Assembly (NCBI GenBank): GCA_032622095.1
Contig: CP136069.1
Location: 122,998,126-123,062,125 of the forward strand
DNA from: Siphonodentalium dalli
Taxonomy: Eukaryota > Mollusca > Scaphopoda > Gadilida > Siphonodentaliidae
DNA length: 64,000 nucleotides
Reading direction: 5' to 3'
Part shown: positions 765 through 45,373 of the stretch, piece by piece
How the letters are laid out: the number at the start of each line of letters is the position of its first letter
How positions within the stretch are numbered: the first letter of the stretch is position 1
Made by a program: the position numbers and the translations under genes
Notes under the pieces: generated by a model
Seen by the model: the letters and a program-made list of their open reading frames with translations, nothing else
Told to the model about the DNA's origin: nothing
Database searches by the model: none

Positions 765-1520
765 TTCGGTCGCCATTTTGGCCGCCATCTTCGATTTGGA
801 AAACAATTTCTTGCATGAGATGTAATGTAATTACTTCACCTCAGTATTTCCAACTCAATTGTAAGCATGGGTGGAGTTGTCTCGACAATAATGCCCAATG
901 ATGTGAATATGAGGGAATTTCGGTGATTTTTCAAAATCTGTCCGCCATTGTGGGCGCCATTTTGGATTTGGGGGACTTTTATTTGGATATGGTACAAGGT
1001 AAGTTCTTCGCCTAAGTGTTCCCAACTTACAATAGTAAGCAGGTGTGGAGTTGCCATGACAATAATGCTCACTGATGTTAAAATCAGCGATTTTCGGCGA
1101 TGTTTTATTTCTGGTGGCCATTTTGGCCGCCATCTTGGATTTGGGTAAATATTCCTCAACTCAGGTATAAGAGGAATCCTAGCTCGAGTATCTCCTGCAA
1201 ATATATATGCATGGGTGTTGTTATAATAGCAATAACATTCATTGATTCGAAACATAACATCGCGTTATTAACGGAGATTAGGCTTTGACCTATGATACCG
1301 GCATTTGGGAAAACGTGATATCGGACAAAAATATCCCGCAATGAATGCATATTATGGGCCTCATGTGTTCGCCAATGACTCCTCTATATGATAAATGTAT
1401 AACATGACGCAAAAATTCTAACATTTTCCCACAGAGACAAACGAAAGGTGGTAACATGTCAGAAAAATAGCATATTTTCACATTTCGGCGGCCATCTTGG
1501 CCGCCTTATTGGATTCTGGT
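765..1520. repeat. Degenerate ~173-bp tandem repeat with GGCCGCCATCTTGGATT
   Basis: The motif (C/T)GCCATTTTGGCCGCCATCTT-GGATTTGG occurs at about 765, 938, 1111 and 1484. Between the first three, the spacer segments align (TAAGCA-GGGTGGAGTTG..., ACAATAATGC...ATG). The fourth is one period further than expected, so one unit has lost its motif. The 139-codon reverse frame at 836-1255 shows the same internal repetition and is not a gene. Confidence 0.8.
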
Positions 1521-16823: not shown

Positions 16824-16827
16824 TTAA

Positions 16828-17320
16828 AGGCACGTGTGGCCTTAATTGTCGAAAATATTCATATTTGTTCCAATCACCGTAAACAGAAAAACATTAAAAC
16901 GCATATAGTTTCGTTCATATATACCATGACCATCGCGTAAACAGCATGTTATCATAAAGATTTACTATATTTTACCAAGCAAGAGCTTGATTGTGTTACA
17001 GAAGACAGCACAATGCTGCTGGCTAATCACACACAAATGGCATAAACGCTCTTTATTCGTTCCATATCAGGAATTCACCCACAAAGAACGCTCTTTATGT
17101 TTACCATCATAATATAAACAAACACCAGAAAAGTTACTTTTTATGCCTTTGTTTACATAACAATGGTCAAAGATATGACAATAACATACTGTTTATGCGA
17201 TATTTCTTATTTGTATACGGACAAAGTCTGTCTACATTTTGTTGTTCTTTCTGTTTGTGGCGGTTTTTGACGGGTGGAAATATTTTCACAGGATACCCAC
17301 CGCCAAGGCCAACCGTACCT
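16828..17320 (+). mobile_element. TTAA-flanked element (493 bp)
   Basis: TTAA lies at 16824-16827 and 17321-17324. The termini AGGCACGTGTGGCCTT and AAGGCCAACCGTACCT are imperfect inverted repeats. Almost identical in length to its inverted counterpart at 40325-40818. It contains paired AACGCTCTTTATT motifs at about 17045 and 17090. The short frame through its right part (from 17195) is a by-product. TTAA targeting suggests piggyBac or Kolobok-type mobilisation, but the ends do not start with CCC. Confidence 0.8.
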
Positions 17321-17599
17321 TTAATAGTCAGGCTGTCCGAGCTGAAATATTGGACCTACCCGGAAAAAATTCTTAACAAGCTAACTTTGGTATCGTTGGA
17401 AAGAGGATACATTCGTGTATAGCATATTTGACGCAAATTATGAAGGTAATTGTGACTACGGGACTCTGTATGTGCGCTAAGTGATATAGGTAAAAGTGTT
17501 TTCAGAACATATATTCATATAACTGCAAGGTCATCAGATAATATATTTACATAAATATGGACAATGGAAAACGTATTTCTCATATCATGATGAAAGTTC

Positions 17600-18930: not shown

Positions 18931-20279
18931 GCATATTAGTCGGGGAGCCAATAAGGTCCACCTGCACCCCCGATGATTACAAATAACCTTATTTTTATTG
19001 TTCCCTATGGTATCCAGATAAAGAATCCGGATTTCACCGAAAAATAAAGGTGGCCCTACTAGGTGCTAGAGCCATTTGAATCCAAGATGGCCACCATTTC
19101 CTCTAATTCCGACCAGCTGTATTTAATCGTTGTAATAGATCGGTTGTTAGCAAAAGACACAGACAAAATGTATGCCATTTTGTTGGTATGATGTCCTTCT
19201 TCAAAATGACGGCAAATAATTTCGAAACAAATTCAAAATGGCCGCCGAAAAATGACGTCATATGCACGAAAATAGGAAATTTAATTAATATTTCACCATA
19301 TCTTCCATTTTTCTTCACATTAATCATTAGTAAATGGCAATGTTTTTGAGACAGTCATCAAGCATGATATTATAGCGTCATTTTAAGACATTTGCCATTG
19401 ACGAGGGTTCCGTAATAGATACAGAAAGAGGATTTGAAAAAGAGGGGTGAAATTTTCGATTTTTTTTGCAAGACGATTTGGATAGTCATTTTAACGACAA
19501 ACCACACAGGCTGTTAATAGAATGTCAACAACTATGTGCTTTATTTTATTGGACGGATGTTTTACTTCAATGGGAATGAAATTGGTGTATAAAATTTCCA
19601 AAATGGCCGCCGAAAATATGAAAAATGGTAAATATTGCTCCAGGGTGTCCTGCAATGGCTTACAAGTTGTGGTTGATATATAAAATTGGCTAATCTGTAT
19701 TATATACATTGAATACTAACATGTCTGATGCACCATGGATCATTGTTTCTATTGTCACCACTGACATCACCAGAAATATTGGATTTTTCTCTCACAAACT
19801 TGACATAAATATCGGCAAAAATTCACTTTTCAGGGTTGGACAATTGTTTTAAGTAAAATGCAACTATCATTGGTATCAAAGGTATTTATTGTTTTGGTAT
19901 ATCTTAAATGTGTCACACTACGGTGTTTATAGACCAAATTGGTCAAGATGGCTTCCAAAATGGCAACCAAATTTGTAAAAAGTAAATGTTTTACATATAT
20001 CCCGAACATTATTATCTGCGTTATCCGACAATGTAGTAGATTGTGACTCACTTGGTTATTATACGTGTTAGTTAATTAACTGACAACTACGTTCTATTAT
20101 GTTTGTCCCAGTTCCATATGGGGCATGACAAATTCATTTTAAAGTTGCAGTATGGAATTTTGCGGAAAATCTCTTTTGTGATTCTTGCCATATTATTGAA
20201 AGGAAATGGGCAGAACTTTGAAACGGAACTGAGATGAACCATAATATGTGGCTATTCTGGTCCATTATGATAAAACATC

Positions 20280-21170
20280 AACTGGATATAGGGTGGATGC
20301 CAAGATGGTAGCCAGGGAGTTACTATATGATCATAGGTGAGGTGAATAGGTATACAGGGAGTTATTGTATGGTCAATGGTGAGATGGGTACATGTATGTA
20401 TACAATGAGTGACTGTATGATCATAAATGTAATGAATAGCTATACAGGGAGTGACTAAATGGTCATGTGTCAGGTGTATGAGTATAGCCGGTGTTCCTGA
20501 TTGGTGACTCGTGGCGGTATGGTCATGTGTAGGTTATACGGGTATACACATGTGTTGCTATATGGTCATGGGCGAGGGGTGTGTGTATATAGCGAGCGGC
20601 TATATGGCCATGGATGATGTGCATATGTATACATGGAGTGAATATACTGACATGGCTGAGGAGTATTAGTATATCTTGAGTGGCTATTCTGCTATGGTGT
20701 GACAAATAGGGATACAGGGAGTGACATGGCCAAGGGTGAGGTGAATATGTATACAATGATTGACCATGATCATGTATGAATGTTTTGAATAGGTACACAC
20801 GGGGTGACTATATGGTCATAGGGCACGAAGGAGTATACCAGGTGCCATGGGTGAGGGTATGTGTATGAAGCGAGTGGCTATATGACCATTGGTGAGGTGG
20901 ATATGTATACCCGGGGTGACTCTATGGTCATTGTTGTGGTGTTGATGTATATATTGAATGTATATTTGACCGTGTGTGTGTGGAGAATAGGTATACATGG
21001 GATGACCGTATGGCCAATGGTGAGGTGAATGGGTATACAAGGAGTGACTATATGGTTATGGGTCATGTTTAGGATTATACCAGATGTGCCTGCCTTGTGA
21101 CTCATGGCTGTATGGACATCCGTGGTCATGGGTCAGGTGTGCGTTTATACAGTTGGTCACTATATTGTTA
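20280..21170. repeat. ~41-bp minisatellite, left array of the foldback element
   Basis: Diverged tandem units carry the recurring blocks GGTGAGGTGAATA, GTATACA, GGGAGTGACTATATGGTCATG. Unit length varies around 41 bp, and roughly twenty units are present. The reverse complement of the same unit forms the right array, so the two arrays could pair into a long imperfect stem. Short open frames here are artefacts of the repeat. Confidence 0.85.
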
Positions 21171-21344
21171 TGTCTGTGGTCTTTATGTATAATGACTGTG
21201 TGGTAATGGGTGGCTATCGCTTTTCACGTTTAAAGTTCCCCCATGTACACAAACACTATCAAGGTGGAGAACTCTTTGACATGACCTCTCTATTGATTAA
21301 CATATCCTTGAGTTATTGTGGAAAGCGATATCCACCCAAATTAC

Positions 21345-22210
21345 ACATGTACAACCCACCCATGACCTCATATGTACATACACACCACACAAATGACAAT
21401 ATAGTCACCCAATCTATACACGTACACCTGACCATACAGCCATATTTGGTTATACCGGTACAATAGTACATGCCACAAATGACGATATAGCCACGAGTCA
21501 CCATGCATGAACACCCGGTATACTCCTACACCTGACCATATAGTCACTCTATGTATACATATTCACCACATTCACGATCATACAGTCACTCATTGTATAC
21601 CTATTCACCTCACCATGGACCATACAGCCACTACATGTATATCTATTTGCCTTACCCATGACCATAGAGTCAATCCAGATATACATATACACCTCACCAA
21701 TGGTGAGCCCTTCCAAATATACCAATACCCGCACACACGACCACTCATAAGTTTCATACTTGCATATACACCTCACACATGACAATTCAGCAACTCACTG
21801 TATACTCATACACGCCATCCATGATCATTCATCTACACATTATACACCACCGATGATAATACATCCACAACATATATAAATATACGACCCACCCGTTACC
21901 AAAAGGGCACTCCCTATATAGCCACACGCTCGTCAATGACCATCCGGCTTATTCCAGGTATGCATATAACTTCAATCTTGACCATACAGGCATACTATGT
22001 GCACCTATACACATTACCCATAACCATAAAATCACTCCCTATTTATCTACGCACTCCATCCATGATCATACAGACAGCACAAATATACATATACAGCCAC
22101 ATGTCACAATACAGCCACACACGGTACACATATACATCCCACCGCGACCTTACAGTCACTCCATATATACATAAACACACGGATGACCATGTAGCTACTC
22201 TCGTTATATC
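21345..22210. repeat. ~41-bp minisatellite, right (inverted) array of the foldback element
   Basis: Units read ACCATATAGTCACT, TGTATACATAT, TCACCTCACCCATG, the reverse complement of the left array. Divergence between units is high, so the arrays are old or were never well homogenised. The inner ends are joined by a spacer whose edges GGGTGGCTATCGCTTTTC and GGAAAGCGATATCCACCC also pair. Confidence 0.85.
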
Positions 22211-22382
22211 TATACACATCTATACATCTTGGATTCAAATGGCTCTAGCACCTAGTAGGGCCACTTTTATTTTTCGGTGAAATCCGGATTCTCTATCTGG
22301 ATACCATAGGGAACAATAAAAATAAGGTTATTTGTAATCATCGGGGGTGCAGGTGGACCTTATTGGCTCCCCGACTATATGC

Positions 22383-24189: not shown

Positions 24190-25315
24190 TTATTTCACTG
24201 ATAGGAAAAGTACCTTCAGTGTCAATGCTGAGTGTATGGATATACGGTTCGCTCTGAGAAAATGAGGCATAAACAAGACCAATTTAACTTCAAAGAAGAC
24301 TGTTTCATATGTGGAAAGGGTGCCATATTAGATCCCCATCATCTCGGTAGAAGATAAGTGCGAACAGTAGCGACTGTCCCTATTAGAGACAAAATTTAAA
24401 AAAACATTGACGTATAAGAGAGGATTCGTGGGCATTGAAGGTTCAGAAACGCATTGTAAGTTGCATTGATCTCGTTGCCGCAGAAGCCGTATATCATGCA
24501 TCTTGTTTCTCCGACCTCCGTGTTCTTGGGAGAAATCAATGAAGATCCAGCTGAGAGAAAACCACAGGGCAGAACACCAAATGTCGAAATGCAACGCTCA
24601 TTTCATTCGTTGTGTGTATGGCTGGAGTCTGGGTGGTACAGAACTGTATACGCTGTCCGAGTCACATACTTGTGGAGCTAGCAATTAGGTCAGAATCATA
24701 TTCAATAAAACACCTTAAACAGAAATTTGGAAGAACGGTATGGGGAGTATATATTTTTTTCTGAAGTCGAAGGGCGTAGCAACGCCATTTGCTTCAAAGA
24801 TATGGCCAAGTACTTTTTGGTATTGGAGTTGAAATGGATCACGTGTTCGGGTCAAGGTGCTTGTTGATGAACTGTCTAAATTGGGGTTTTAAATTATTTA
24901 CGACGAATTAAACAGGTACAAGCAATCGGTGATCCGGGTGAAAGTACACTCGTGGAGTCTTTTCCAGGTACCTTTTCTCAGTGGGTAGCAGATAACGTCG
25001 ACCACAGCGTCGCTACTATTGATGGTAAAGGTTAATTTCATGGCATTGGGATAACCGCAGTTTCAACTCCGAAAGACGATACCCTGCTTACACCTATATC
25101 AAAAGTGATCACTCGTCAAAAACGTATTATGGTTGAAGAACTAATCGAAGCCAATGGTGAGCCTATCATACACTATATGAAACCTACAAAGCTGGGATTA
25201 TCCACAATAAAGTACCGACCCATGCTTGAGTTTATAACAAAACCAATACAAATGCCTCCAGGTTTGATCCACAGGTCCCCAGAACAAAAATTTACCCCAC
25301 CCCAATAGTACTTAA
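24190..25315 (+). pseudogene. Decayed copy of a multicopy invertebrate protein family (CFICG / VADNVDH type)
   Basis: Pieces of one protein can be read in order on the + strand across several frames. They are RKSTFSVNAECMDIRFALRK; then FNFKEDCFICGKG (CxxC, zinc-ribbon-like, about 24281-24325); then EDPAERKPQGRTPNVEMQRS (from about 24540); then SFHSLCVWLESG and ELYTLSESHT; then YSIKHLKQKF and FFSEVEGRSNAICFKDMAK (about 24690-24810); then LVDELSKLGF, ESFPGTFSQW, VADNVDHSVATIDGKG (from about 24985); then ITRQKRIMVEELIEANGEPI and KPTKLGLSTIKYRPMLEF (to about 25240). Stops and frameshifts separate them, for example TAA in place of a codon after DGKG near 25032. I remember this motif order from large uncharacterised families in mollusc, coral and lancelet genomes, some apparently spread by mobile elements, but no function is established. 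The tail passes into the inverted repeat that starts near 25258. Confidence 0.65.
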
Positions 25316-26905
25316 TCCTATAGAAAGGTATCCAACTTGGCCCGGCCTAATTTGTTATCATTTACACAAAGTCCAAAATCAGGTTCAAAATACATAAAAA
25401 TAATGTGTGTTACATAAATACCTCGAATATAGATAGAAAGATATATTATTACTCTTCAATTTGATGTATCCCTTGTAAAAATTGGTTAAGAGCACAGGGC
25501 TGACGCAAACCGGCTGTAAACTTTCACTCGTTCGAGATGGTGTCCGCTAAACTGGATCAAATAGTCCGGTTTTAACACCGACTTTAGCTTCAAAAACACG
25601 TTCAACGGTAAGTAGAATATATATATTATACACAAATAGAAGCGGAATTGTTTACTGACCCACCCAAACCAATCATGCCGCACCACGGAATCGTATCTCT
25701 CGTATTCATTGAAACAATCAGTTTCATAAACCCGGAAGAAATTTGCAATTTTCAAACCGGCCAGTTTGTAAAATATTGTAAGCAAGCCGAAATGACGTAA
25801 TACTAATTTGTCATGGGCCAAATGTAAATCAAATATATTTTAGGACTTCTGTGTGTCTGTTAGCAATGGCCGGGGAAACTGCCGGACGGATTTCGACGAA
25901 ATTTGATACCTAGGGCTACTTTTGTCCGGGGAGTGTTTTCGACGGGTCAAACCGTTACCCCGACCTGACCTTGACCTTCAAAATGGTCAATTCAAGGTCA
26001 AATCGGGTAAAACGGACGGATTTCGACGAAATTTGATACCTAGGGTTACTTTGTCCGGGGAGTGTTTTGGACGGGTCAAATCGTGACCAGGACCTGACCT
26101 TGACCTTCAAAATGGTCAATTCAAGGTCAAATCGCGCCTTTCTCCGGAAAGCAGCGGGGAAACAGCCCGGATGAAGTCGGGTACACCAGCTAGTCAAATA
26201 TAACGAAGAAGTAGTATATATACGCTCTAAATATTTATGAAGTTATATTCCATATATGTATGTTTTCAATCGGCATTCGTGTTAATTCAGTCTTTGTGTA
26301 TTTATTTAATTTTTATAACTATATATTGTGTTGCATAAGAAGTATAAATAGTACTCATAGCAGACTCGCACAAAAAGGCTGGTTTTGGAAAATTTCAATT
26401 TGCTTCCGGGTTTATGAAACTGAATTTTTCAATAAATGCGAGAGACACGATGCTGAGATGTGGCGTGATTGGTTTGGGTGGACTAGTAAACATTTCCGCT
26501 TCTAATGATGTATAATATATATATTCTACTAACCGCTGATTGTGTTTTTGAAGCACAAGTCGGTGTAAAAATCGCACCCTTTGACCCAGTTTAGCGGACA
26601 CCATCTCGAACGAGTGAAATTTTACAGCCGGTTTGCGTCAGACCTGTGCTCATAACCGGAGTTTTTCTTAACCAATTTTTACACGGGATACATCAATTGA
26701 AGAGTAATGGTATCTCTTTCTACCTATGTACGAGGCATTTATGTAAGAAACATTATTTGTATGCATTTTGAACCTGATTGTGGACTTTGTGAAAATGATA
26801 AAAAATTAGGCCGGGCCAAGTTGGATACCTTTCTATAGGATTAAGTACTATTGGGGTGGGGTCAATTTTTGTTCTGGGGACCTGTGGTTTGAACACTGAT
26901 TTGTT
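25258..26905. repeat. Large imperfect inverted repeat around a Helitron-like insert
   Basis: The left arm (about 25258-25764) and right arm (about 26371-26905) are reverse complements with modest divergence and indels. Shared marks are CCACAGGTCCCCAGAACAAA, CCTATAGAAAGGTATCCAAC, TTGGCCCGGCC-like, ACCGGCTGTAAA and TTCATAAACCCGGAAG. The spacer is about 600 bp. The outer end of the left arm joins the decayed CFICG-family copy. Both arms keep a short open frame across QVPRTKI-PTPIVLNPIERYP, so the duplicated segment may once have been coding. Confidence 0.8.
25838..26193 (+). mobile_element. Helitron-like non-autonomous element
   Basis: The right end AGCCCGGATGAAGTCGGGT (a CCCG/CGGG hairpin) followed by ACACCAGCTAG and a T is typical of a Helitron 3' terminus. 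The body has two ~130-bp direct copies (25884-26013 and from 26014) starting GGACGGATTTCGACG, each containing GACCTTGACCTTCAAAATGG and TCAAGGTCAA. Against the usual model, TCAAATATA occurs at both edges (25829-25837, 26194-26202). That could be a 9-bp duplication or coincidence, so the left boundary is uncertain. Confidence 0.6.
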
Positions 26906-30490: not shown

Positions 30491-30702
30491 ACATTAGAAC
30501 AATGTCGATCTATTTTTGAATGTACTTGTTGATAGTTATTTTACGGACTTTAACCCTTTACCCAACAAACCGACCAAAACCGGCCAAATAAAGCTTCAAC
30601 AGCCTAAAATATCTTCGGTCTGTCTCAATAGAACCATACAAATATGGATATCATTGGAACCGGCTCCTTGACCACATTGTGATAGTTACAGTTATTCCCT
30701 GT

Positions 30703-30771
30703 GCCAATGCATTCTCTTATATATGCGAGTCGACCATAGGTCGCCTCGCATATATAAGAGAATGCATTGGC
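30703..30771. repeat. 69-bp palindrome (hairpin module), copy 1
   Basis: Arms GCCAATGCATTCTCTTATAT... and ...ATATAAGAGAATGCATTGGC pair over about 33 bp around an ATA loop, with a single mismatch near the centre. It is the reverse complement of copies 2 and 3. Confidence 0.9.
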
Positions 30772-30850
30772 CTAAACAAAATTTTTTTTTAACACTTTTT
30801 ACCATTTTTTCTTACATTCTTTAACAATTTTATAATTTTTAATGTGTTAA

Positions 30851-30919
30851 GCCAATGCATTCTCTTATATATGCGAGGCGACCTATGGTCGACTCGCATA
30901 TATAAGAGAATGCATTGGC
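30851..30919. repeat. 69-bp palindrome (hairpin module), copy 2
   Basis: Same module as copy 1 in the opposite orientation, with centre GCGACCTATGGTCGA. It is followed by ACAGGG, as in copy 3. Confidence 0.9.
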
Positions 30920-30949
30920 ACAGGGCCGTTCTGTTGGGTAAAGGGTTAA

Positions 30950-33900
30950 TAAAATATAACTTATTTAACATGAACCAACTTCGAAGACCTTGAGTCCCTT
31001 TAAACAATTGTTTGATCACCACGTTGTGTGTTTCCAACTCATAATAATTTATCCGCAAGCTCAAATTCTGTTCTTTTTCGGTGACCAATGTTCCAGCTAA
31101 CCTGTTCTCTACGGTTGGGAATTTTACAGCTGAGTGCTATTTGAGTCTAAAATTTCTAAGAAAGTAGGAACATCATTATATTTTGGTCTAAACACAACAT
31201 AACTTATACTAAATACTGTATCATAACAATTTGACCTTATTAACATATTCCATGCAGTCTCGAATTTCCAACTGTTGTTGTTCCAGGCAGGAATTTTCCA
31301 ACCAAAGTTGAGGGGGGGGGGGGTAAAAATACACCAACGTACCATTGTCGCCACATCCCTGCGACCATGCATGTGTTAGTACGTATAAAGGGCCTATATA
31401 GTGTATCGTTGTGTTGTGTGAAGGAAAAATACAGAAACGCCACACAGAATATGGGAGATCACTCTAACGCGAATAAGAGATTTTACCTTTTGTGCTGCAG
31501 AATCGATCAATTCGTTCTGAAGCAAAAACTATAGGAACAGTCTTAATTTAGATATTGATAGGATCTGAAATTTCCTAGTGCCCAAATTGATTGAGGAATT
31601 AAATTTCCAACTGTTGGAATATTTTTACCAAACTTGGCGGGTGGTCAGATTCCCGCAAACCCACCCCACCCACCACATATTATGCCTCATTCACATCGCG
31701 AGAAATAGTCTTGGACCTTTTTTTTGTCGGGGATTATTTTTTGCCTTCGATTTTAGTCGGGGAATATTCCGGGGAGATTGTCTGCGAAAATGTAATTTGT
31801 ATATTTGGTGCAAATAATTCCAATACTCAACCAGATGATGTATCCAGAATCAGAGACCGAGTTGAAATCGGGATAAGTTTCAATAAATTCCCTAAAACAC
31901 TGTTGAGAGCTATAACAATATAGTTTCCGATTATGTCTGTTGAGTCTGTGAAATAATAATAATGTAGCCCTTTGTGTGGGTTGATGTTCTGCTGTATATG
32001 TCATTATATCCTCCCATCACATTTGTTCAATTGTAAATCTAACAGAATTGCGATGCAAGCCATGAGAATTTAACATTCAGCAATGAATATGAAGCATCAT
32101 TTAAGGCAGTGTTGCAAATATAGTTATCCTGCGTCACTATGACTACTTTAAATACCAGAATGTGTCATTGTAACTCGCTGAAATGTGTGGGTTAGTGACA
32201 GTGACTCCAAATGATTGTGACTAACTAAGTATGTCACATTGACCTGATTTTTTTGTCAGTGTTTAATACTCCATCTCTTTGACAAGTAGCATTTACATGC
32301 TTGAATTGTTCGGTGGTTTTGATGGTGTTTGCACTATACTGCTGTTGTGGCACTGGCTTTTAATTCTGCTTATTAAATATGAGTTAACTGTATAGAGCAG
32401 AATGAGGAAACACTTGCGGTGACAACACACTTTCGGCCTTTGATATTGATACTTCTTATTGGTGTGAATAAATAAAAGGATCCGGTGAGAAACACACTAA
32501 ACTTGGGATTTGTTGATGGGGACAAAATCGTGTGTTCGGTGTCATCGTGGGGTACATGGTTATTTGATGCATGGGTGTCCCTTTTTGAACACTGAGGCGG
32601 GCTCAAAATGAACATTCAGTTATCAAATGTCCATGTAATCACAATGTTGACTTCATGGGATAAATTATAATATGCCATTGAAAATTAATGGGGAAACTTT
32701 TGTTTTGTACCGGACTATATTTCCACACGAGAATTCACATGTACACAGGTTGACGATTTGGTCCCCGACTATCACAATTCGGTCCATCTCTCGAGCGGGA
32801 CTATTGTTTTTAATTTGGTCGGTGATCAAGTACTATAGTTCCCGACCAATTGCATTTATATACATAATTTCTAGGTCCCGGACTATTTGTTTTGTTCTTA
32901 TGCTTACGTGGGTAGCGGGCTATCTGGTTCTTCTAGCTCTAGTAGCCTATCCGGACTCTCCACATCCTTCCGAACCTTCATTCTTCTGTTATTGGATCTT
33001 GCCTGAAAATAGATAAATATATCAAATAAATCCAATTGGATTCTTAACCATTTCTGTACTAAAATTTGCAAAGCCACAGTTATAGGCACAGTAAAACGTG
33101 TGGAACAATCAACACATATATGCACGATATACAGAACTGATGAGATACAGAAAAGATGCATGCATCTATAAATATTGCATATATGTTATAATTATATTCA
33201 TATATTTAGAGCCCATATCATATTTAGAGGATCCACAACGAAACGAGGTCTGGACCAAGCCTTTGGTGATGTTCAAACCTAATTTACTGGACGAGTTTTC
33301 TAAATTTCGTTATAAACTGGGGACGAGTTGTACGTTCTATTTATTATTTGATCCAAAACCTCAAGAAAACATACTTAAATCAATAAATTGGATGTGAAAC
33401 TAAAAGCGGCTTCTATAAGGATCTATAAGGCATGCGACGACGTTTCACGTAAATTAATGAAATAAATCAATATCAGTTACAGACACCGATCCTTCTTCAT
33501 TCCTCGTCCCCGATTCCGAATCACACTTGCGCTATACAATAATACATTTGGATATATACCTGGCACTGCTATATACCTGTTATGCGACGACCGTTGCATA
33601 ATTTTAGTTATTATATAATATGTGATGTGATGTGAAACACTCAAATAGAAATGGAGGATAATCTTGCTCAAAATAGTTATTTTTACAAATATTAAATCTA
33701 AACTGACAACACATGCCGTCATTATTATATACTAATTAAATTAAGTGACTCTCGATGGCGAAATCGTTTTCGTTATTTTGTCGCCGACAGTTGCGTCCCG
33801 ATTCGAGAAGTAAATATATATAATTGGGCGTAGTTCAGATAATGTTTTCTATTGAGTGGTACGGTCGATTTGCTTCAGATTTTCGTCGTTGTTGTTGAAT

Positions 33901-40188: not shown

Positions 40189-40976
40189 GCTGAAGGGGTC
40201 ACTCTCACCAAAACAGTGCTGAAGGGTACACAGGTTTTGAAATCTCATTGTAAATGACGTTCATTTTTCGTATCTGCCATGATTTCTGTTAGAGAATAAT
40301 TGTTTACGTTTCAGTGAACATTAAAGACACGGTTGGCCTTGGCGGTGGGTATGCTGTGAAAATATCTCCACCCGTCAAAAACCGCCACAAACAGAAAGAA
40401 CATCAAAATGTAGATAGACTTTGTCCGTATACAAATAAGAAATATCGCATAAACAGTATGTTATGGTCATATGTTTGACCATTGTTATGTAAACAAACGC
40501 ATAAAAAGTAACTTTTCTGGTGTTTGTTTATATTATGATGGTAAACATAAAGAGCGTTCTTTGTTGGTGAATACCTGATATGGAACTAATAAAGAGCGTT
40601 TATGCCATTTGTGTGTGATTAGCCAGCAGCATTGTGCTGTCTTCTGTAAAACAATCAGGCTCTAGCTTAGGTAAACTATAGTAGGTCTTTATGATAACAT
40701 GCTGTTTACGCGATGGTCGTGGTATATATGAACGAAACTGTATGCGTTTGAATGTTTTTCTGTTTACGGTGTTTGGAACAAATATGAATATTTTCGACAA
40801 TTAAGGCCGCACGTGCCTTTAAAATTAACTGAAACAATGTACTAATGGGCGCCAGACTTTCAGAAACACAGTTTAAGTAACGATGTTAGTGCCATGTACA
40901 CCCTTCATCACATTTTCAAACCATGTGTACCCTTCAGCACTTTTTGGTGAGAGTGACCCCTTCAGCATTAATAACT
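40189..40976. mobile_element. Mutator-like MITE, copy 1, split by another element
   Basis: Termini GCTGAAGGGGTCACTCTCAC / GTGAGAGTGACCCCTTCAGC are perfect inverted repeats. The flanks ATTAATAAC at 40180-40188 and 40977-40985 are exact 9-bp direct repeats. A 9-bp target duplication points to a Mutator-like origin. Removing the TTAA-flanked element leaves about 290 bp that aligns with copy 2. Internal marks are GCTGAAGGGTACACAGG and CTGTTAGAGAAT. Confidence 0.85.
40325..40818 (-). mobile_element. TTAA-flanked element, nested copy (494 bp)
   Basis: It is flanked by TTAA at 40321-40324 and 40819-40822. The ends AGACACGGTTGGCCTT and AAGGCCGCACGTGCCT are imperfect inverted repeats. It is the reverse complement of 16828-17320 along its whole length and contains AACGCTCTTTA-type motifs near 40550 and 40595. 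No coding capacity is seen. The insertion splits Mutator-like copy 1. Confidence 0.85.
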
Positions 40977-41345: not shown

Positions 41346-43248
41346 TGCCTTGGGTACCTTTAAAGCACACGTTACAGGTGTATTTTGTTTCTAGTTCACG
41401 TGCTGATATTCACACAATTGACGACAATGTGTTGTAGCCATTCTTACCTGGTGGTCCTGGTCGGGAACTACAAACTTACCCCTAATTCGTCCAGCTCTCA
41501 CCATTCAACACAATTCAGTAAAATCTATTGCTGATGCACAACTGTTTATTGTAATCGAGCGCACTCTCAACATTTTGATTTGGATCGCACCAGATGATGG
41601 TATACACTCAGAAGTTAACCCTTCAATAAGCCCCGTTCTTCGTTATTCGCCATCGAAAACACCGTGATGGACTGTGACATTCATATCAATGGTATTTTTT
41701 TTTAATTTATCAGAGTTTGGTCAACATATGCATCTTTATTAATCATGGTTGATAAACCTTGGTGGACTGCTTTTGAGACTTCATTGTTTACCTTATGAAT
41801 GTCCTAACATTGACCGTTGAGGTATTGTCACCAATGTGAACAAACATTGCCGCCATTACTGGTTTTGAACGATAATTACCTACCGCTTTGTAAGAAAATG
41901 TCCAATATCTCCCACGAATCCACACGATCGTCGATGTCGCGCTAAATATCCAACAATAAGTGTCACATGATGCACTTAAATGAGTTAACATTATAATATC
42001 ACCTGTTTATGAAGTTGTAAACGACCTTTTCTCTCAACATTCTCTCTCTAAATTCAAAATCATCTTCCCTCCGCATGCGCACTCAGCTTCCAATCCAATA
42101 CTTGAGGATAACCACAATCATTATGCTTTCTCATTTCTCGAATTGTTTTTTATTGCTTTGTCTTTTGTCTTTCTGCTTTGTTTTGTTTGTTTTCTTGGTT
42201 GTAAATTAGCTTATTTTGTATGTGTTCTAGTCTCCTGAGCTTCATATTTTGTATTCCTGTGGAACGACTAAATGCTTGCATATATGTTATGTACTAATGG
42301 GCATTTATAGTTCTGTATTCACTTTGTTTACACGTCTGCAACCCTTGTGGCATTGCATGAAGCTTTTCGTCTAAGGGAAGAAACCAGAACTATTAATACC
42401 GTTGAAATATGTGGCCTGGTCGACCGCCATAAATAATTGTATATTCACCTTCGCCTATTTACAGACATGTTTACACTCACCATCTTCCAGAAACTATACC
42501 GATATGTTGTTTTCTTTTTCAAAAAGTTTACCGCGACACACAATTTCTCAAACGTTTAAATCAAAGACTGCTTCGATGACTCAATGTTGACGAAATCTAA
42601 GTTCCAAATTCACGTATGATAAAATGCCAATGCAGTGCAATTCTCCAACACAGATTACGATATATCCAAACTGACTGCTTCCAATGCTGTTCTGTTCCAC
42701 ACACAAAAAGGTCTTTTTTTCCGGGTTTGAATAATTGATCTCAGCACTTCATGTGTCCTTTGTTGTCACCAGTTCTGATACTCTTTGTTGTCGCTCGCTG
42801 ACATCGCGTCGATATTCAGGTTGTTGTCTTTTATGTTGCATTGAACTTCAAACCGAGAGTTCCTATTAGGCGCACTTTGCTCATTGTCCTATATCCAATA
42901 TATAAATGCAATGTCGTGATATATAGATATGTTGGGCGTGTTATGTTCAGAGACTGTGTGTCCCCTGCCATCGATGATTTGTTTCTGTCTAATACTGCGT
43001 TGTTTCCGAGACCTCTGCATTTAAAGTATGTCTGATGTGTTATTATTGTGGCACTATCCAGTTTATGGTATGACAATAGTGTATGTCAGAGCAGCGTAAG
43101 CACATATCGTATAGGAATAGTACTGGCAACAACTATGTTAAAGTTAGTTAGCCAAATAGGTTATGGTACAGTGGTGTTAATTATTATATCCTAAGCCGTC
43201 AATAGGTTAAACTGATTTAAAATGTGTTATCATAAGTCAATTTGACTA
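41346..43248. other. No supported gene
   Basis: Unique DNA with short frames. GGTACCTTTAAAGCACACG at about 41353 resembles a terminus of the TTAA-flanked elements but has no partner nearby. Confidence 0.45.
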
Positions 43249-43868
43249 AGAGTCCACGAATGCACGTTGATTATATGGGACGTGGCTAGAGGAATAAGAG
43301 TCCGTGAATGCACGTTGATTATATGGGACGTGGCTAGAGGAATAAGAGTCCGTGAATGCACGTTGATTATATGGGACGTGGCTAGAGGAATAAGAGTCCG
43401 TGAATGCACGTTGATTATATGGGACGTGGCTAGAGGAATAAGAGTCCGTGAATGCACGTTGATTATATGGGACGTGGCTAGAGGAATAAGAGTCCGTGAA
43501 TGCACGTTGATTATATGGGACGTGGCTAGAGGAATAAGAGTCCGTGAATGCACGTTGATTATATGGGACGTGGCTAGAGGAATAAGAGTCCGTGAATGCA
43601 CGTTGATTATATGGGACGTGGCTAGAGGAATAAGAGTCCGTGAATGCACGTTGATTATATGGGACGTGGCTAGAGGAATAAGAGTCCGTGAATGCACGTT
43701 GATTATATGGGACGTGGCTAGAGGAATAAGAGTCCGTGAATGCACGTTGATTATATGGGACGTGGCTAGAGGAATAAGAGTCCGTGAATGCACGTTGATT
43801 ATATGGGACGTGGCTAGAGGAATAAGAGTCCGTGAATGCACGTTGATTATATGGGGCGTGGCTAGAGG
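43249..43868. repeat. 48-bp minisatellite, ~13 copies
   Basis: The unit starts GAGTCCGTGAATGCACGTTG and ends GACGTGGCTAGAGGAATAA. Internal units look identical; only the first (GAGTCCACG) and last (GGGGCGTGG) differ, as expected after recent expansion by unequal exchange. Since 48 is a multiple of 3 and the unit lacks stops in several frames, frames of 217-236 codons stay open on both strands (for example LIIWDVARGIRVRECT repeated on +). None shows other evidence of being a gene. Confidence 0.95.
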
Positions 43869-43889
43869 ATCTCTGTTGGGGGACAATGG

Positions 43890-44974: not shown

Positions 44975-45373
44975 CCCTTTCAGTGCCAGGGGCCGATTTT
45001 TTATTTTTTTTGGTTGAATTTGTTTTGGGTATGGTTAAGCATGCTATAGCAAATTTAAAAACAAACTGGATAAAATCTTAGGGACATGTTATAACTCAAA
45101 ACTATCACCAAGTATTCATACTAATAATTTTGATGCCCATGAAAAACGTAAGATTCCCTGGTAAAAAACCTACAAAATAAGTCTGTTAATATAAGAAAAA
45201 ATTATTAAAATTGTAAAAAATTGTAAAAAATAATAACAAATGATAAAAAATTGTTAGGCCAATGCATTCTCTTATATATGCGAGGCGACCTATGGTCGAC
45301 TCGCATATATAAGAGAATGCATTGGCACAGGGTATATGAGTTGATACAAAAATCGGACCTGGCACTGAAAGGG
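44975..45373. mobile_element. piggyBac-like MITE nested in copy B (399 bp)
   Basis: It is flanked by TTAA on both sides (44971-44974, 45374-45377). The ends begin CCCTTTCAGTGCCAGG and finish CCTGGCACTGAAAGGG, extending to about 30 bp of imperfect inverted repeat that includes CCGATTTTT. TTAA targets and CCC-starting termini are hallmarks of the piggyBac superfamily. There is no transposase. A 69-bp palindrome lies at 45258-45326 near the right end. Confidence 0.85.
45258..45326. repeat. 69-bp palindrome (hairpin module), copy 3
   Basis: Identical to copy 2 as far as I can read, although it lies over 14 kb away in an element whose other sequence has diverged. It is preceded by TTAG and followed by ACAGGG. 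Confidence 0.9.

Follow-up and report, generated by a model that had tools for sequence, protein, structure and literature searches.

The window analyzed here, a 64-kb stretch at C9:122998126-123062125 of the host assembly, contains at 18937-22377 a 3,441-bp element that we consider, with a probability of roughly 0.7 for this reading and its full mechanism, to be a deletion derivative of a high-copy, nonautonomous foldback DNA transposon family. The full-length member of the family is roughly 5 kb long and hairpin-shaped and is present in hundreds of copies in the host genome. Under the proposed mechanism, a coding relative would make a cut-and-paste transposase, perhaps of the AcademX type, that recognizes the ends of the element and would move array-bearing copies in trans. 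The two arms would be copied onto each other by repair or by single-strand foldback between them, and copying that enters the arrays would change the length of the element.

The window copy is bounded by terminal inverted repeats (TIRs) of 153 nt each that differ at 2 positions (Table 1), matching the inverted repeats of about 150 bp proposed in a preliminary description; the limits given there, 18931-22382, were close, the true ends lying slightly inward. No second TIR copy was found elsewhere in the 64-kb window, where the remaining matches were short (28 nt at ≤82%). The longest stop-to-stop frame of the element (151 aa) spans array and TIR, and scans of the whole window against Rfam (gathering thresholds) and for tRNAs gave no matches. 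The block of 1.2 kb is indeed one-sided in this copy, as described before. The asymmetry had also been taken for a trait of the element, which it is not: nine copies parsed elsewhere are symmetric, and the window copy is asymmetric because about 1.47 kb is absent on its right side (the outer ~270 bp of the array together with the right block), with 7 other bases in its place.

Table 1. Parts of the window copy (positions in the window)
Feature	Position	Strand	Remark
Target duplication TAT, left, 3 bp	18934..18936	.	flank comparison
Left TIR, 153 bp, starts TAGTCGGGGAGCC...	18937..19089	+	C-tract of 5 in window copy
Left arm block, 1.2 kb	19090..20290	+	coding potential: none recognized
Left array, ~22 diverged 42-bp units	20291..21212	+	
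Central spacer, 129 bp	21213..21341	.	
Right array, ~21 inverted units of the 42-bp repeat	21342..22217 (end about 22220)	-	outer ~270 bp missing
Deletion junction, 7 bp	22218..22224	.	~1.47-kb loss: outer right array and entire right block
Right TIR, 153 bp	22225..22377	-	
Target duplication TAT, right, 3 bp	22378..22380	.	flank comparison

An exact 22-mer from the TIR end occurs at 834 places (405 plus, 429 minus) in the host assembly (2.23 Gb, nine contigs), and the reversed control sequence at 0. The first 100 of these ends, all on contig 1, form 33 inward-facing neighbor pairs within 20 kb (66 ends), with 34 ends unpaired and 1 neighbor pair within 20 kb in another orientation. By length, 5 pairs are below 2.2 kb (362, 645, 1098, 1876, and 2141 bp), 1 is 4,556 bp, 7 are 4,904-4,962 bp, 11 are 5,119-5,428 bp, 4 are 5,654-5,730 bp, and 5 range from 7,657 to 17,948 bp. 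With the TIR as query, 1105 candidates were obtained. Scoring covered the best 40, and 20 of the 39 scored places outside the window were fetched (fetched loci are denoted L0xx). Most fetched copies come from the best TIR matches, so that the sample leans to young copies.

Nine copies, the full-length members that the preliminary description had proposed to look for, could be parsed whole and have the symmetric order TIR, block, array, spacer, array, inverted block, TIR. Thus, the TIRs recur elsewhere with block, arrays, and spacer, the association on which the status of an element family had been made to depend, and this is a true element family. The first array is 912-934 bp in seven of the nine copies and 1,871 and 2,031 bp in the other two, the second is 1,084-1,147 bp in eight and 1,501 bp in one, and the spacer (129-131 bp) is 0.969-0.984 identical to that of the window copy. 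The inverted arms fill most of the element and enclose the 42-bp arrays in all nine, as in foldback elements, and the ends are constant (TAGTCGGGGAGCC...GGCTCCCCGACTA); the C-tract at TIR position 31 ranges from 5 (window copy) up to ~59 (L010). In two of the nine (L019 and L028), one of the TIRs is incomplete or interrupted. Five further loci (L014, L015, L025, L026, and L027) have both ends along with deletions, insertions, or rearranged blocks, and the copy in L024 extends beyond the fetched stretch. The copy at L029:602-3579 is a mosaic, 98% family-like in the TIR and in the block up to position 92 but 75-89% in the rest; it carries its own array of the 42-bp type, and we read it as an older subfamily with a young end. 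L017 and L018, 8.6 kb apart, are 99.6% alike over 4.2 kb and represent a local duplication. Outside the host, no copies were found in viral_contigs (three patterns) or in genome_contigs (one pattern), apart from one bacterial match in the latter that was taken as chance. Among the literature matches listed, the family is described nowhere; it may be catalogued elsewhere.

Identical 3-bp flanks, a check suggested in the preliminary description, were present in 17 of the 19 two-ended copies examined, compared with 32 of 306 cross-copy pairings (18 of the 19 copies). The set comprised the window copy and 13 loci (13 of these 14 exact), four short derivatives (all exact), and a 7,657-bp relative described below; an exact duplication is missing in L015 and in the 7,657-bp relative (CAT/CAG). 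These short direct repeats have the constant length expected of DNA transposons, here 3 bp. They include TAT, ATA, AAC, ATT, GAT, GAA, GTA, AAT, and TTT, with A or T as the middle base in all 17. In TIRs that had not been used for selection of the copies, 14/2002 sites were variable relative to the reference versus 467/22759 in the block (Fisher p 4e-6). This low variation agrees with selection on the ends, but in a given copy the second TIR may have been overwritten from the selected one.

A single 42-bp unit, oppositely oriented in the two, accounts for the left and right arrays (wrap-around scores of 759 and 642, respectively; five letter-shuffled versions of the left array score 72-108), so that the earlier account of two opposed arrays with a shared unit stands, except that the unit is 42 bp, not 41. 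Its consensus, from 43 aligned units, is TGACTATATGGTCATGGGTGAGGTGTATATGTATACAGGGAG. TRF detects the arrays only in part (3.5 and 4.0 copies) because the units are merely ~65% alike. Mean pairwise unit identity is 0.655 in the left array, 0.647 in the right, and 0.648 between the two, and as units are equally alike within and between arrays, both look like draws from one old repeat pool. Such a pool would also be expected if an ordinary host satellite had been captured by chance, an explanation that we find hard to credit, given that the arrays occupy the same position in all nine parsed copies and are 0.962-0.973 identical there to those of the window; this identity shows that the arrays are inherited whole. 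A simple palindromic order of the units was rejected, the maximal diagonal identity being reached by 302/2000 permutations and the 4-unit run being equalled in 36/2000. The TIR, block, and spacer were likewise rejected as sources of the unit, with no alignment exceptional against 200 shuffles.

The two arms of individual elements preserve traces of exchange. Shared variants were counted in 19 block arms from 10 copies, leaving out singletons and 36 alleles present in at least three arms. Exactly two arms carry each of 50 minor alleles. For 34 of these, spread over 7 of 9 elements, the two arms belong to the same element, although same-element pairs make up only 9 of all 171 arm pairs; the other 16 include 6 that L010 and L019 share in their right arms. 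Private variants common to both arms of one element imply that one arm was copied onto the other, and in this sense the alignments show arm-to-arm copying within single elements. In a tree of the arms, the two arms are sisters in four of nine elements (L016, L020, L021, and L028; support 0.91-0.995) and nonsisters in five. In L016, near-identity (0.99) of the arms reaches ~450 bp into the arrays, compared with 0.72-0.85 there in the other eight copies, in which the outer 150 bp of the arrays show an arm identity of 0.81-0.85. L034 has 98.8% arm identity over 485 bp, array included. We infer from L016 and L034 that copying past the block into the arrays could create the 5.2-kb class. A recent palindrome derived from a single progenitor, with no later copying between arms, would fit the overlap of left-right block identity within copies (0.958-0.985) with the identity between copies (0.954-0.989; first 5 or 6 copies) as well as the left-left and right-right relationships retained by L010 and L019, but we hold it very unlikely as the only source of arm likeness in view of the 34 two-arm alleles shared within single elements and of the L016 arrays.

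A possible source of mobility for the array-bearing copies is the 7,657-bp relative at C1:81039288-81046944 (L041/L043/L044), the only coding copy of this type seen. Family TIRs are present on both sides of it, as is block 1-528 (96.8% to the window block), and its arms are 98.9% alike over 710 bp; neither array nor spacer was found in it. One of its strands carries four open frames (729, 321, 125, and 509 aa), and it so matches the longer relative between the same termini foreseen in the preliminary description, with a candidate in place of a recognized transposase: the 321-aa frame weakly resembles DUF6589 (E 1.1e-4; 21.5 bits, where the curated cutoff is 27). Against Pfam, the 729- and 509-aa frames gave nothing credible, the 729-, 321-, and 509-aa frames had no match in NCBIfam, and the 509-aa frame, which by eye we take to recall FEN1/XPG nucleases, had none in PDB up to E 10. 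These frames may encode what moves the family. The weak likeness to DUF6589 combined with the 3-bp duplications suggests AcademX as the leading, unproven assignment.

The more elaborate possibility that an AcademX transposase and nuclease together drive the family, with nuclease-aided excision or repair of the palindrome making one arm the template of the other and so renewing arm identity, and with overrun into the arrays giving new size classes, we regard as speculative and rather improbable. Somewhat less doubtful, yet still unlikely, is a mover from a different superfamily that makes 3-bp duplications (Zator or a relative of PIF/Harbinger), the coding segment being an unrelated capture or a nested insertion. 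The Zator transposase is of the ISAzo13 type (PF07592). Such a mover would be in keeping with the A or T at the center of all 17 duplications, and two more long copies bear insertions, while the 7,657-bp copy itself lacks an exact duplication. Zator is reported to make 3-bp duplications and PHIS elements none or 1- to 4-bp ones (PMC10045372). Capture is nevertheless difficult to reconcile with the closely similar arms on both sides of the coding segment and with an interior that replaces the arrays, spacer, and inner block rather than interrupting them. We therefore retain the 7,657-bp copy as the candidate coding partner of the family.

Other candidates for a coding relative were rejected. 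The five long pairs on contig 1 comprise three nested or rearranged copies (L034, L035, and L036), one pair of 17.9 kb, and the 7,657-bp relative. L034 carries an insertion in its array (L034:2148-6517) with a 15-bp inverted repeat (CAGTCCTTCCC...) and TATAT flanks, the 766-aa frame of which matched nothing in Pfam up to E 0.1. In L036, the block is interrupted by an insertion at 888-896, and L035 is a rearranged copy. L042, part of the 17.9-kb pair, contains no element or L041 sequence in the 7.3 kb read. In L012, L013, L017, and L018, the element stops within the block and gives way to unrelated sequence in which no transposase was recognized; a 378-aa frame in L013 is reverse-transcriptase-like by eye. 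A search for a coding element that shares no more of the TIR than its initial 16 bp gave one match, judged to be chance because it is confined to TIR 1-19. Finally, the inner end of the TIR joined to nonblock sequence gave 6 matches, one being the window copy; the two others that were read, L032 and L033, are unlike the element.

The block was also examined for internal repeats and coding frames. One self-match of the block in the window (79 bp, 70%, E 1.2e-5) hints at a tandem repeat of ~360 bp; comparison of such units within the block gave a best score of 34.0, which did not exceed the maximum of 35.5 in 100 shuffles. In the right arm of the coding relative, block 140-523 occurs a second time at 88%, and 140-371 a third time, more weakly, at 68%. 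L021 has 27 frames that reach 60 aa or more; a Pfam scan of 10 of them gave no match near a curated cutoff. Motifs like CAAGATGGC / AAAATGGCCGCC, which we take to resemble a YY1 site, recur at window positions 779-1498 and 19084-20302 and in L032 and L033, stretches that otherwise differ.

The window contains several other repeats. In another large foldback, at 25262-26894, a 129-bp tandem pair is enclosed by arms with complementarities of 91% and 86%. Two stretches 23 kb apart, 16824-17330 and 40315-40822, form inverted repeats 361 and 153 nt long with 94-95% complementarity. A 48-bp unit is repeated thirteen times at 43247-43869 with 99% matches and is open through in three listed frames. 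The palindromic unit GCCAATGCATTCTC... occurs in three copies at 30697-30925 and 45252-45332. The stretch 31754-32771 has TAGTCGGGGA, which resembles TIR positions 1-10, at both ends in inverted orientation; a matching 3-bp duplication was not seen.

Among known systems, the FB/Galileo type named in the preliminary description agrees with this family in architecture but not in target duplications, which are 3 bp here rather than the 7 to 9 bp of Galileo (P superfamily) or FB or the 8-10 bp of Tetris. FB duplications are 9 bp. Tc4, a foldback of Caenorhabditis elegans, makes a 3-bp duplication; its target is CTNAG, unlike the varied duplications listed above. Galileo, a foldback-like element of the P superfamily in Drosophila, is described as having 7-bp duplications, a ~210-bp tandem unit in variable number, and copies with transposase sequence (PMC3573991). 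It resembles our family in its long inverted arms, some with internal tandem repeats, in two-arm copies without transposase, and in chimeric and deletion derivatives, and differs in that here the duplications are 3 bp, the unit is 42 bp, and the arrays are conserved between copies. Tetris of Drosophila virilis, a foldback, is reported to have 8-10-bp duplications and ~220-bp repeats that are ~94% alike and give rise to satellite arrays by expansion, with no autonomous copy found by the authors and repeat homogenization suggested (PMC4079207). Its arms also combine tandem repeats with an outer flank domain, whereas units in the present family are ~65% alike, most parsed copies keep a stable array length, and duplications are 3 bp. 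For AcademX, 3- or 4-bp duplications are reported (9 or 10 for AcademH), tied to the encoded nuclease or helicase (PMC10045372); the 3-bp duplications in 17 of our 19 copies fall within this range, and the coding relative has a candidate frame nuclease-like by eye, but the frames scanned in that relative gave no transposase match above a curated cutoff. No Academ foldback with arrays appeared among the literature matches listed, and PMC11071193 and PMC10799480 added nothing decisive to the comparison.

This foldback transposon family is real. Its class is ordinary; what sets it apart is the 3-bp duplication, the conservation of the 42-bp arrays, the arm-to-arm copying that can be measured, and the candidate coding partner. 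Private variants in both arms of one copy form a direct, countable record of inter-arm copying, so that how foldback arms stay alike becomes testable. In this single assembly the ends number in the hundreds, the boundaries are exact, and one coding relative shares these ends, whereas the authors of the Tetris study reportedly found no copy carrying a transposase.
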